Shown: in pieces, positions 5,505 to 27,865 of the stretch
Numbering within the stretch: position 1 is the stretch's first letter
Layout: the number at the start of each line of letters is the position of its first letter
Assembly: GCF_016786325.1 (NCBI RefSeq)
Contig: NZ_JADWYU010000097.1
Span: forward strand, 1 to 64,000
DNA from: Frankia nepalensis
GTDB lineage: Bacteria; Actinomycetota; Actinomycetes; Frankiales; Frankiaceae
Reading direction: 5' to 3'
DNA: 64,000 bases
Made by a program: the position numbers and the translations under genes
Notes under the pieces: model-generated
What the model saw: only the letters and a program-made list of their open reading frames with translations
The model's database searches: none
Told to the model about the DNA's origin: nothing

Positions 5505-6872
5505 CTAGTTGTTCGGGTACAGCGGCGTGCAGGCGAGCTTGACGGCCTCGGTGTACTTGCCGCCGGCAAGGTGGACGACGGAGGCGCACGGGGCGGCCGC
5601 GTTGTGGTTGACCGGCCACTGGGTCTCGCCGACGGCGCCGGGGACGTGGTAGCTGTAACTGCCCCCGTTGAGGGTCTTGAGCAGGTTCGCGACCGTGAGG
5701 TCGGGGCCGGTCTTCTCGATCGCGTCGAGGAAGAAGTCCGCCGACCAGTAGCCGGCCATCGCGGTCAGGGTGATCGGCTGGCCGGGGGCGTACTTGGCGA
5801 AGTCCGCCTCGAGCTGCTTGACGCCGGCCGAGCCGCTCTCCACGGGCGCCCACTGCACCAGGGTGTAGGTGTCCTCCAGGTCCTTGAAGCCTGTCAGCCG
5901 TGGGTCGTAGCCGAGCGGGGTGAGGATCTTGCCCTCGTAGCCGGCCGCGCGCAGCGCGGTGATGAGCTTGATGGCGGGCGCGAAGTCCACGATGGTGACG
6001 ATCAGGTCCGGCGGGGCGCCCTTGTCGGCGGCCATCAGGTCGTTGACGAGTGCCGTGGGGTCGTTGAGCCCAGCCGCCGGCACGGGGTTCTCGGAATAAG
6101 GCACGGAGAACCCGGCGGCCTTGACGCCCTTCGCGGCCAGGTTGATGCCGTTGACCGCGGAGTCGATGTCGACGCCGACGAACGCCACGCTCTTGTCCGT
6201 GATGCCGCCGAGGATGCCACTGGCGGCCATCGCCCACGTCGTCGAGATCGTCGGCCCGTCCGGCTCGGCGACCAGGCAGCCGGTCACACCGAAGCCGATG
6301 GCGGTGTTGCAGTAGGGCGCGCTCACTCCCCAGCCGAAGAACGGCGTCCCGGACTTGCAGAACGTGTCGGCGAAGTTGCCGGTGCGGACGACGGCGGGCA
6401 CGGCCGCGAAGACGCCGTCGGCGACCAGGGACTGGGCCTCGGTGAGGGTCCGGGCGGAGTCGGCGCCGTCGTCCCGGGTGCCGATGTAGTTGATCTTTCG
6501 GCCGTTGATGCCGCCCTCGTCGTTGGCCCGGCTGAACCGGGCCTTCGCGCCCACGTCCATCCCGGCGTTCACGGGCCCGCTCGTGCTGGACTGGGTGATC
6601 AGTCCGCCGATCTTGATCTCGGTGTCGGTGACGCCGCGGGCCGGCTCGCCGCCGGGCGCGGTGCAGTCGAGCTTGGCCGCGTCGACGGTGATGCCAGAGT
6701 TGCTCCAGCCCGAGTCCGGTCCCGCCTCGAACGCCTCCGGGCCGAGGGCCTGCGCCGACGCCGAGGGCTGCGCGCCACCGCCGGCTCCGTCGTCGTCCCC
6801 GCCGCCGCACGCGGCGACCAGTAAGAGCGCCGCCACGGCGGCGATGGGGACGAGTCTTCGGGAGCTATGCAT
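5505..6872 (-). CDS. Branched-chain-type substrate-binding lipoprotein (orphan receptor)
   Basis: A 455-residue secreted lipoprotein. A Lys/Arg-light n-region, a hydrophobic segment (LVPIAAVAALLLVAAC) and the lipobox LVAAC put the lipidated cysteine at about residue 22. The mature protein has the Leu/Ile/Val-receptor fold: TDTEIKIGGLI, GGINGRKINYIGTRDDGADS, FFGWGVSAPYCN and TAMAGYWSADFFLDAIEK. It is paralogous to the proteins at 22758 and 33627. No permease or ATPase gene lies in the window, so it either serves a transporter elsewhere or acts as a sensor. GGAGG sits before the ATG, and it follows the CoA transferase gene by 41 bases. A strong terminator follows it. Confidence 0.9.
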   Translation of the reverse strand: MHSSRRLVPIAAVAALLLVAACGGGDDDGAGGGAQPSASAQALGPEAFEAGPDSGWSNSGITVDAAKLDCTAPGGEPARGVTDTEIKIGGLITQSSTSGPVNAGMDVGAKARFSRANDEGGINGRKINYIGTRDDGADSARTLTEAQSLVADGVFAAVPAVVRTGNFADTFCKSGTPFFGWGVSAPYCNTAIGFGVTGCLVAEPDGPTISTTWAMAASGILGGITDKSVAFVGVDIDSAVNGINLAAKGVKAAGFSVPYSENPVPAAGLNDPTALVNDLMAADKGAPPDLIVTIVDFAPAIKLITALRAAGYEGKILTPLGYDPRLTGFKDLEDTYTLVQWAPVESGSAGVKQLEADFAKYAPGQPITLTAMAGYWSADFFLDAIEKTGPDLTVANLLKTLNGGSYSYHVPGAVGETQWPVNHNAAAPCASVVHLAGGKYTEAVKLACTPLYPNN

Positions 6873-25086: not shown

Positions 25087-25110
25087 CGACTTGATAACTT
25101 CTTCAAGTCG
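25087..25110. promoter_or_regulatory. Candidate ArsR operator
   Basis: CGACTTGA (25087-25094) and TCAAGTCG (25103-25110) form a perfect 8-bp dyad with an AT-rich 8-base centre, ending 15 bases before the ArsR GTG start. The position would block transcription or translation initiation. Confidence 0.65.
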
Positions 25111-25125
25111 ATAAGGGGTGACGCC

Positions 25126-25488
25126 GTGGCGGTCCCGCTCTACCAGGCAAAGGCCGAGTTCTTTCGCATGCTTGGTCATCCGGTTCGGATCCGGGTGCTG
25201 GAGCTGCTGCAGGACGGCCCCAGGCCGGTGCGTGACCTCTTGGTCGCCACCGGCGTGGAACCTTCCAGTCTCTCCCAGCAGTTGGCCGTGCTGCGCCGCG
25301 CCGGGATCGTCCGGGCGACGAGAGAGGGAGGAACAGTCGTCTACGAGCTCGCCGGCAGCGACGTAGCCGAACTGTTGCGCGCCGCCCGCCGGATCCTCGC
25401 CGAACTTCTCGCCGGCCAGGAGGACCTGCTCGCCGAGCTGCGTGACGCCGAGATGGGCTCCGGCACGCGCTCGCGGCGAAGCGCATGA
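25126..25488 (+). CDS. ArsR/SmtB family winged-helix regulator
   Basis: A 120-residue regulator. FFRMLGHPVRIRVLELLQDGPRPVRDLLVATGVEPSSLSQQLAVLRRAGIVRATREGGTVVYEL covers the helix-turn-helix and wing. No cysteine or histidine metal cluster typical of metal-sensing ArsR proteins is visible, so a non-metal signal is more likely. GTG start just after a palindrome. The stop overlaps the ATG of the malic-enzyme-like gene (ATGA), so the two are made together and may interact. Confidence 0.9.
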   Translation: MAVPLYQAKAEFFRMLGHPVRIRVLELLQDGPRPVRDLLVATGVEPSSLSQQLAVLRRAGIVRATREGGTVVYELAGSDVAELLRAARRILAELLAGQEDLLAELRDAEMGSGTRSRRSA

Positions 25489-26753
25489 CGCGAGGCCAGC
25501 TCCAGGTGAACCCGGCGTTCAGCCTCGCGGTGCGGGTGCCGACGACGGCGGTCGAGCGGGTCCGGCGGGTCGTGGCCGAGGCACCGGGCGCCGCGGCCTG
25601 CCTGGTCGACCACCCGCGCGATGACAGCCATCCGCGCGACGACAGCCACTCAGATGGCGACACCGGTTTCACGGTGGTCACCGTCGAGGCAGACGGCGCC
25701 GACACGCTGAACTGGCTGGACGCGACCCTGCGGGCGCGACTCGGCACGGACCTGCTCGACGTCACCGACCTGGCCTTCAGCGTCGCCGCCGGCGGCAAGC
25801 TCGGGCTGTTGCCGCTGGCGCGGATCGTCACCGACCTGGACATCGCCCAGCTCGACGCCGACGCGGACCGCCGCGTCGTCACCCATCTGGCCGCGAATCC
25901 GCGCGCCGCCGACCGCTACACCGGCCGCGCCCGCCGGGTCGCGCTGCTCTCCGACGGCACCGCCGTGCTCGACCTGGAACCGATCGCGGCGTCGACCGCG
26001 CTGCCCGCGCTGGAGTCGCAGGCGCTGCTGCTGCACCGCGCGAGCGGCCTGGACGTGATCCCGATGCCGGTCGCCGCCCCGCGCGCCGCCGACGTCGTCT
26101 CGGCGATCTCCCTGCTCGCGCCCGGCTTCGGCGCGACGGTGCTCGTCCACACCGACCTCGCCCGGGTCGCCGTGATCCGCGACGGCCTCGCCGACGCCGG
26201 CCTGGTCGTTCTCGACGCGGTCAACGACGGCCTCGCCGTCGCCGCGGCCGCCGCCGTGCTCTCCACGCTGCGCGCCCAGGGCACCCAGCCGCCGGCCGCG
26301 CGGGTGGTCATCGTCGACCCGTCGCGTGGAGGCGAGCTCGCCGGTCTGCTCGTCGCCGCCGGCGTCGGAGACATAACGCTCTACGATCCGGTCCGCTATG
26401 GCATCGCGGCGCTGCATCAGCTCACAGCGGAGGCGGGCGCGGTGGATCTCGTCATCGACCTGATCGGCCTGGCCGCGCCACCGACGACGGTCCAGGTGCT
26501 GCGCACCCGCCCGCAGACTCCGCCCCGCTTCGCGGCGGCGACCACCGCGCCGCGCCCGCTGCACGCTCTGCCGGGCCTGCTCACCGCCGCGCTCGCCGCC
26601 CACCGGCCGCCGACGACCGCCGCCCGCCTTGCCGCCGCCCGTGCCCTGTCGGACCTGGCGGCCTCCGGCGACCTCCTTCCGCCGCTGGACCACCCCGACC
26701 TGACGACGAAGATCGCCGCCGCCGCGGCGGCCGCCCTGCCAGCCGACGGTTAG
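25485..26753 (+). CDS. Malic-enzyme-like protein with eroded active site (probable pseudoenzyme)
   Basis: A 422-residue protein. An ACT-like N-terminal segment (NPAFSLAVRVPTTAVERVRRV) precedes a region that follows bacterial NAD(P)-malic enzymes through its length: ARRVALLSDGTAVLDLEPIA, TALPALESQALLLHRASGLD, ISLLAPGFGATV and a C-terminal LPGLLTAALAAHRPPTTAAR. Key residues are missing: the YTPGVA tyrosine region is LDADADR, the MEGKA lysine is Gln (LESQA), HDDQHGTA is DAVNDGLA, and the Gly-rich nucleotide loop reads VVIVDPSRGGELAG. Catalysis is therefore unlikely, while a ligand-binding fold may persist. It starts inside the ArsR stop, suggesting a sensor or co-regulator. This is inferred from by-eye alignment. 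Confidence 0.8.
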   Translation: MTRGQLQVNPAFSLAVRVPTTAVERVRRVVAEAPGAAACLVDHPRDDSHPRDDSHSDGDTGFTVVTVEADGADTLNWLDATLRARLGTDLLDVTDLAFSVAAGGKLGLLPLARIVTDLDIAQLDADADRRVVTHLAANPRAADRYTGRARRVALLSDGTAVLDLEPIAASTALPALESQALLLHRASGLDVIPMPVAAPRAADVVSAISLLAPGFGATVLVHTDLARVAVIRDGLADAGLVVLDAVNDGLAVAAAAAVLSTLRAQGTQPPAARVVIVDPSRGGELAGLLVAAGVGDITLYDPVRYGIAALHQLTAEAGAVDLVIDLIGLAAPPTTVQVLRTRPQTPPRFAAATTAPRPLHALPGLLTAALAAHRPPTTAARLAAARALSDLAASGDLLPPLDHPDLTTKIAAAAAAALPADG

Positions 26754-26884: not shown

Positions 26885-27322
26885 TCAGACCGATACGACC
26901 CTGACGGCCGACGGGGGTGCCTCGCGGCCGGGCCCGGTGCGGTCGAGGTGGTCGGCGAGCAGGGCCGAGAGGTCGTCCGGGTCCGACGTCAGGACGGTCG
27001 CCGGCTTGTCCTCCGCGTCGAGGGCGGTGGCGGCGACCATCGCGTCGATCGCGTGCTCGTGGCCGTGCCTGTCCGCGTCCTTGAGCAGGCTCGATGCGGA
27101 GCGCGCGAGATCCTGGCTCAGCGGGACGACTGTCAGCCGCGACAGCACCCAGTCCAGCCGGGCCCGGTGAACGCCCGCGTGATCCGCCTCGACGATGGTG
27201 GCGGCCGTGATTGCGATGCGGACGTCTTCCCGCAGGGCGGCTGTGAGTCTCGCGGCCATCTTTCGGTCGGCGCGCAGGTGCAGCGACAGTGCCTCGCTGT
27301 CGAGGATCAGAGTGCCGCTCAT
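26885..27322 (-). CDS. PIN-domain ribonuclease, VapC-like toxin
   Basis: A 145-residue PIN domain. The acidic metal-binding set is visible: Asp8 (LILDSEAL), Glu45 (TIVEADHAG), Asp93 (HAIDAMVAATAL) and Asp114 (LTSDPDDLSAL). VapC toxins cut RNA, often tRNA, when freed from the antitoxin. The ATG overlaps the antitoxin stop (ATGA), the standard VapBC order with antitoxin first. Base composition just upstream is lower in GC than neighbours. The unit sits between two SDR 3'-end copies. Confidence 0.85.
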   Translation of the reverse strand: MSGTLILDSEALSLHLRADRKMAARLTAALREDVRIAITAATIVEADHAGVHRARLDWVLSRLTVVPLSQDLARSASSLLKDADRHGHEHAIDAMVAATALDAEDKPATVLTSDPDDLSALLADHLDRTGPGREAPPSAVRVVSV

Positions 27323-27582
27323 GCCTTCTCGCTCCGTGTGCCTGATCCGAAGAGCTCCTGGCGCGCGGCCTGGGTTTCCTCCTCGGTGATCTTTCCGTGG
27401 ATGGCCTCGCTGGCCTCGATGAGCTCGCGGAGGTTGTCGCGTTCGATCTGGCGCCGGACGGCGCGCTCGATGTACGCGGAGACGCCGCGCTTGCCGACCC
27501 GCTCCCGGACGGACGCGATCACACTGGCGTGCAGTGACACTGACACCGAGACCGTCGGATCCGGATCTCCGTCGTCGCCCAC
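27319..27582 (-). CDS. VapB-like antitoxin
   Basis: An 87-residue protein from a GTG at 27582. An N-terminal strand (PTVSVSVSLHASVIASVRERV) followed by GVSAYIERAVRRQIERDNL resembles a ribbon-helix-helix DNA-binding region. An acidic C-terminus (EAIHGKITEEETQAARQEL) would bind the toxin. An in-frame ATG at 27624 is possible, but neither start has a clear Shine-Dalgarno. A -10 ending seven bases before the GTG suggests a leaderless transcript. The module is probably autoregulated. Upstream 27625-27865 has no gene. Confidence 0.75.
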   Translation of the reverse strand: MGDDGDPDPTVSVSVSLHASVIASVRERVGKRGVSAYIERAVRRQIERDNLRELIEASEAIHGKITEEETQAARQELFGSGTRSEKA

Positions 27583-27589
27583 GATGAGG

Positions 27590-27598
27590 AGACTAGCA
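27590..27598 (-). promoter_or_regulatory. Extended -10 element for the antitoxin-toxin operon
   Basis: TGCTAGTCT on the minus strand fits TGnTAnnnT. It lies in an AT-richer stretch and would place the transcription start at the GTG of the antitoxin. Confidence 0.4.
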
Positions 27599-27865
27599 AA
27601 AGGATTGCCAGAAGGAAGAATCATGATCGTGCCAGGTGGCTGCCACTCGATTGGAGTCGTCGGGCGCTCCATGGTGATGGCCAGATTGGCTGGGGGTGGT
27701 GCATGCGTGGTAGCGAGCACTGGGACCGCAGAAGTCGATGTGATGGGTCAGACACTGCCTGGGTAGACAGTAGCTCCTCCGGTCGAAAACGGTCAAACCG
27801 GCCGGTCTGGCCCTGGCTGGGGCGCCGGCCAGCGGCTGGGCCGTCGTCCAGTCGGCGGTTCGGGG

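Follow-up and report, generated by a model that had tools for sequence, protein, structure and literature searches.

A malic-enzyme-derived pseudoenzyme paired with an ArsR-family repressor in Frankia nepalensis and its relatives

In this work we have analysed a 64,000-nucleotide stretch of DNA from Frankia nepalensis, referred to here as the window, in which the gene of an ArsR-family repressor overlaps that of a 422-residue protein related to malic enzymes. The residues on which malic enzymes depend have been replaced in this protein and throughout its family, and the replaced site has itself been conserved. We consider it moderately probable that this malic-enzyme-derived pseudoenzyme family has been drawn into an ArsR-autoregulated module for anion transport by SulP proteins. 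The features of the locus are collected in Table 1.

Table 1. Features of the arsR-pseudoenzyme locus (positions in the window)
Feature	Position	Strand	Basis
Candidate ArsR operator, CGACTTGA-N8-TCAAGTCG, perfect 8-base arms	25087..25110	.	Sequence and comparison
ArsR-family repressor, 120 aa, GTG start	25126..25488	+	ORF, profile matches, alignment of relatives
Malic-enzyme pseudoenzyme, 422 aa	25485..26753	+	ORF, PDB sequence match, AlphaFold, residue alignment
N-terminal ferredoxin-like (ACT/PII-like) domain, residues about 9-98	25509..25778	+	AlphaFold models, fold match, collinearity
Malic-enzyme core, replaced site D124, Q179, V221, H222, V246, DPSRGG 278-283, R357, H360	25779..26753	+	

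The original prediction held that the second protein keeps the malic-enzyme layout, and the motifs quoted in its favour are all present. The NF009501 malic enzyme profile matches the window protein with E=1.4e-13 and also matches all 27 members of the family, phmmer against the PDB returned 2a9f (E=1.2e-14) and 5cee (E=1.8e-13), and hhalign with a canonical Streptomyces malic enzyme gave 98.5% with residues 11-404 collinear. An AlphaFold model built from the 27 family sequences, with a mean pLDDT of 75 and its highest confidence over residues 190-420, matched solved malic enzymes with Z up to 29.1 (rmsd 2.8, 273 aligned). Profile, sequence and structure comparison thus agree, with Pfam alone silent, and on these sequence and model comparisons we are certain that the protein is a true malic-enzyme homologue. 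The Pfam scan gave no credible match in any of the 27 members, so Pfam by itself would label the protein as unknown.

The signature motifs of malic enzymes carry both catalysis and cofactor binding. We compared these positions in the 27 family members and in 13 canonical enzymes taken from the window's own genome and from other actinobacteria; in the residue pairs that follow, the first number refers to the canonical copy of the same genome (L063, on contig C164) and the second to the window protein. At the YTPGVA and EGKA positions the catalytic residues have changed from Y117 to D124 and from K172 to Q179, in 27 of 27 members. The metal ligands E214, D215 and D240 are V221, H222 and V246 in the window protein, and across the 27 members the Glu has given way to Val or Ile, the first Asp to His222 and the second to Val, Ile or Leu. 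The malate-binding N391 and N394 have become R357 and H360, and the NAD loop has gone from GAGASG to DPSRGG, the general change in the family being from GAGxxG to DPxRGG. In contrast, the signature residues are intact in all 13 canonical enzymes, L063 included. The loss of catalytic residues that had been noticed in the single protein (Gln for the MEGKA lysine, and no HDDQHGTA or YTPGVA residues) therefore holds for all 27 members. It had also been claimed that a Gly-rich NAD loop is absent; the GxGxxG motif was indeed not found in the 27 members when they were aligned with the canonical enzymes, but the loop itself has been remodelled into the conserved DPxRGG. A malic-enzyme profile match was found and an intact set of residues was not, so the prediction stands in both respects. 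Set against bacterial NAD(P)-malic enzymes such as MaeB, Thermotoga TM0542 and the ACT-type enzymes of Streptomyces, with which it shares the fold and the collinear residues 11-404, the pseudoenzyme has all of its signatures replaced, those of general acid-base catalysis as well as those for the metal, malate and NAD, and from the alignment it is almost certain that malic-enzyme activity has been lost in the family.

Could the new site catalyse a different reaction? Eleven polar positions (D124, D128, R129, R130, Q179, H222, D244, N247, D248, R357 and H360) are invariant or nearly so, much as in an active site. We nevertheless find a new enzyme improbable, because the parental metal ligands, the general base and acid and the dinucleotide loop have been lost together, and because the gene has no conserved enzyme partner in its operon. 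We also give little credence to the idea that the protein is a regulatory subunit, which would tune the canonical malic enzyme as a hetero-oligomer while ArsR sets only its amount. Malic enzymes are oligomers, plants use paired NAD-malic-enzyme subunits, and the window's own genome does hold a canonical enzyme with all residues intact. However, the pseudoenzyme is only about 26-34% identical to canonical enzymes and its C-terminal (second) domain is shorter than theirs by several tens of residues, which makes conservation of the interface doubtful.

In genome contigs, relatives were recovered by an alignment-based scan, whereas a single-protein scan found none. Among 394 genomes of the class, 24 carry the pseudoenzyme and all 24 belong to Frankiaceae, the named hosts including Frankia, Protofrankia and Parafrankia; most of the Frankiaceae genomes examined have a copy, at 50-60% identity. 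Outside Frankiaceae it occurs in a few Streptomycetaceae, of which Streptomyces lanatus and two Embleya species are closest, while identity is about 41-44% for Streptomyces copies that are more distant. A relative from the same genus, otherwise lacking the pseudoenzyme, retains a remnant that is 67% identical over 49 residues (G006:C1:7614100-7614246, L061). Such remnants (this one, another beside ArsR1 and SulP in G020, and truncated Streptomyces copies) are what one would expect of a malic enzyme that had been duplicated and was now being lost. The replaced residues, however, are strictly conserved across four Frankiaceae genera and Streptomycetaceae, and dN/dS is about 0.11-0.35 among close pairs, values which indicate that purifying selection maintains the protein. 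We therefore regard decay as very improbable and largely refuted by this conservation: the shared replacements and the low dN/dS point to a pseudoenzyme family that selection maintains, a new enzyme being the less likely alternative.

The first gene of the pair had been called an ArsR regulator, and its product exceeds the cut-offs of both Pfam (PF01022, HTH_5 winged helix: E=7e-11, 42.3 bits, cut-off 22) and NCBIfam (NF033788, HTH_metalloreg: 76.3 bits, cut-off 55). As was also proposed, its stop overlaps the start of the pseudoenzyme gene, and the coordinates of the two reading frames confirm that they share the bases ATGA. We use ArsR1 for the ArsR type of the window, which in relatives is paired with the pseudoenzyme or with SulP. 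The Cys/His metal site of ArsR/SmtB sensors was not found in 15 aligned ArsR1 proteins: Cys is absent from all of them and His18 is the sole conserved His. Downstream of the pair, at 26885-27720 on the minus strand, lies a convergent two-gene pair with the look of a VapBC toxin-antitoxin system, the VapC match being weak (E=0.028).

A survey of genomes showed the linkage to be genuine and to be conserved from genus to genus. The pseudoenzyme is preceded directly, and on the same strand, by an ArsR sharing 67-83% identity with that of the window in about 18 Frankiaceae loci, and many loci have a gap of tens to a few hundred bases between the two genes in place of an overlap. ArsR1 occurs about once per Frankiaceae genome and, where present, is found beside a pseudoenzyme or SulP gene. 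Both genes are present in 17 of 35 Frankiaceae genomes, the pseudoenzyme only in seven, ArsR1 only in one and neither in ten (Fisher p=0.0009, not corrected for phylogeny). The seven genomes have only ArsR-less copies and no ArsR1 anywhere, and the ArsR-less Frankia copies at a fixed locus are under stronger constraint, with dN/dS of 0.11-0.17. Since these copies persist without ArsR1 or the candidate operator at such values, the role of the pseudoenzyme cannot be wholly dependent on ArsR1. In Streptomycetaceae, ArsR genes are mostly nearby but in other gene orders.

Several of these loci have neighbours worth recording. The ArsR-less pseudoenzymes of Frankia (L037-L046, L053, L054) occupy one fixed chromosomal place, with a DtxR-like regulator on one side and a dehydroquinase-like gene on the other, and with an ammonium transporter and PII further upstream of the regulator; at L041 an ArsR and SulP are found at this same locus. 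In Parafrankia (L057, L056, L047) the pair has as neighbours a gene for phosphoenolpyruvate carboxykinase, another ArsR with about 50% identity to the first and a principal-type sigma factor, and L056 and L057 have SulP as well. A single 567-codon frame in Candidatus Frankia nodulisporulans (L079) results from a small deletion near the end of arsR (5796-5960) which merges the two frames, and we rejected it as evidence of a fusion.

It was originally proposed that the retained fold serves as a ligand or metabolite sensor working with ArsR. In such an arrangement the pseudoenzyme would bind a metabolite, contact ArsR directly and thereby switch the binding of ArsR to DNA, the part that SrnQ plays for SrnR. 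The overlapping genes, the pairing conserved in many loci and the lack of the usual metal- and thiol-sensing residues in ArsR1, with no Cys and one conserved His, are all in keeping with this. There is also a published precedent from Streptomyces griseus, in which the ArsR-family protein SrnR forms a complex with SrnQ, which is described as nickel-binding and without resemblance to known proteins (PMC7055735). The likeness lies in an ArsR-family DNA-binding protein having a partner protein; the putative partner in the window is instead a malic-enzyme derivative. Of the proposal, the kept fold, the lost residues and the linkage to ArsR have held up; joint sensing of a ligand and the two-component-like arrangement stay conjectural, and several observations speak against an obligate partnership. 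The same ArsR type serves SulP elsewhere without an adjoining malic relative, the pseudoenzyme persists in the seven genomes without ArsR1, and in many loci the two genes do not overlap. Because of the ArsR1-SulP pairs and the stronger constraint seen where ArsR1 is missing, we treat a co-sensor as a rival rather than the leading explanation, and think it unlikely.

The palindrome upstream of arsR is a candidate operator of ArsR's own gene. With its core, TTGATAACTTCTTCAA, at 25091-25106, it ends 15 bases before the arsR start, and a palindrome of the form TTGM-N8-KCAA precedes arsR in nearly all of the pairs, L036 being the exception. The pattern was drawn from these loci and its presence in them is partly circular, while genome-wide and out-of-family matches, and likewise the sites in G024 and G017, are independent of its derivation. 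The strict form, TTGMNNANTTCTKCAA, was derived from the same loci and then searched for in whole genomes. In Frankiaceae it gave 14 sites, 13 of them before ArsR1 (followed in 12 cases by the pseudoenzyme and in one by SulP), and the 14th is on a contaminant contig. This contig (L156, Frankia sp. CIT1, G009:C139) resembles plant mitochondrial DNA and probably represents host contamination of a nodule sample. Outside Frankiaceae, nine of the 17 loci fetched with the strict form are ArsR-SulP pairs. The matches at L151-155, L161, L162 and L169, which have no ArsR1 or SulP in the fetched stretch, were set aside as apparent chance occurrences. The loose form, TTGM-N8-KCAA, is found 22 times in the Streptomycetaceae loci against 1.35 expected from shuffles, and other spacings of the arms gave 0-6. 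In front of two solo Parafrankia copies such a site lies some 100 bases from the gene; upstream of the Frankia fixed-locus copies TTGM-N8-KCAA was not found. Taken as we read it, ArsR control of the pair is likely.

What connects the pair with anion transport is the recurrence of SulP. In G022 (Frankia torreyi) sulP comes third in a row that begins with arsR and continues with the pseudoenzyme gene, in G016 sulP is divergent from the pair, and in G020 ArsR1 and SulP flank the pseudoenzyme remnant. G008 and G023 have SulP no more than 6 kb away, along with PEPCK, another ArsR and a sigma factor, and three Streptomyces genomes have ArsR-SulP pairs or a SulP gene 1-4 kb from the pseudoenzyme. As the number of SulP matches per genome is only about one to nine, such proximity is unlikely to arise by chance (about 1% per locus, by a rough count). 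No SulP was found near the window pair, the matches in its own genome sitting on other contigs. In the actinobacterial ArsR-SulP pairs, an ArsR of the same type, 54-80% identical, follows the same palindrome and is followed by SulP, whereas here the pseudoenzyme follows ArsR, and SulP comes after it (G022) or is absent nearby (the window). The best PDB match of the SulP proteins is 6ki1, which we take to be the bicarbonate transporter BicA, although this match does not fix the substrate of SulP here. Islands in Streptomyces (L133-L138, L072) contain up to five ArsR paralogues, SulP, STAS proteins, carbonic anhydrase, hydrogenase-like subunits and many TTGM-N8-KCAA palindromes.

The N-terminal domain of the pseudoenzyme has the order beta-alpha-beta-beta-alpha-beta in the AlphaFold models. 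ACT/PII-like domains are of a kind that often binds regulators. The best fold match is the PII-like SbtB (Foldseek E=1.6e-3, Z 9.8), but unrelated ferredoxin-like domains reach Z 8.6. When the N-terminal domain was compared by itself with its canonical counterpart, the match had an E of only 0.12. SbtB proteins regulate bicarbonate transport and share the order of strands and helices; the likeness is nonetheless weak and generic for ferredoxin-like folds, and the sequence of the pseudoenzyme favours instead a relation with the ACT domain found in malic enzymes. Descent from ACT would be simpler than descent from PII, since the domain is collinear with that of the canonical Streptomyces malic enzyme, whose N-terminal domain is itself a weak Pfam match to ACT.

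Our preferred explanation, the ArsR-autoregulated SulP module, would work as follows. A dimer of the cysteine-free ArsR would bind the TTGM-N8-KCAA palindrome and repress arsR together with the gene of the pseudoenzyme, as well as sulP in loci where that comes next, until some signal causes its release from DNA. The pseudoenzyme, co-expressed after this release, would be a regulatory protein binding a small molecule, probably an anion of the C4-acid or bicarbonate kind, and would modulate SulP uptake or feed back on ArsR. Neither the order of genes nor their shared regulation reveals by itself what a protein does, and a ligand-binding regulatory role of this kind is a reasonable guess. Perhaps the malic fold has even become a sensor of metabolites or anions whose ligand pocket is remodelled yet invariant and which signals through the otherwise sensor-less ArsR or through SulP, but we put this forward tentatively.

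A literature search returned nothing on ArsR with malic enzyme in Frankia, on malic pseudoenzymes or on ArsR with bicarbonate transporters, and within the literature searched the family is apparently undescribed. Regulators that are pseudoenzymes of central metabolism have been recognised as a class, with few documented cases, and none derived from malic enzyme was met in that literature. The present family lends itself to testing: it offers 27 natural variants that share one replaced site, the promoter site is defined, and genomes are available both with and without ArsR or SulP. The findings also point to a general actinobacterial ArsR-SulP module with a shared operator, whose ArsR proteins lack the usual metal sites. 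If the tentative sensor reading is true, ArsR, the pseudoenzyme and SulP would constitute a system of uptake control that has not been previously described.
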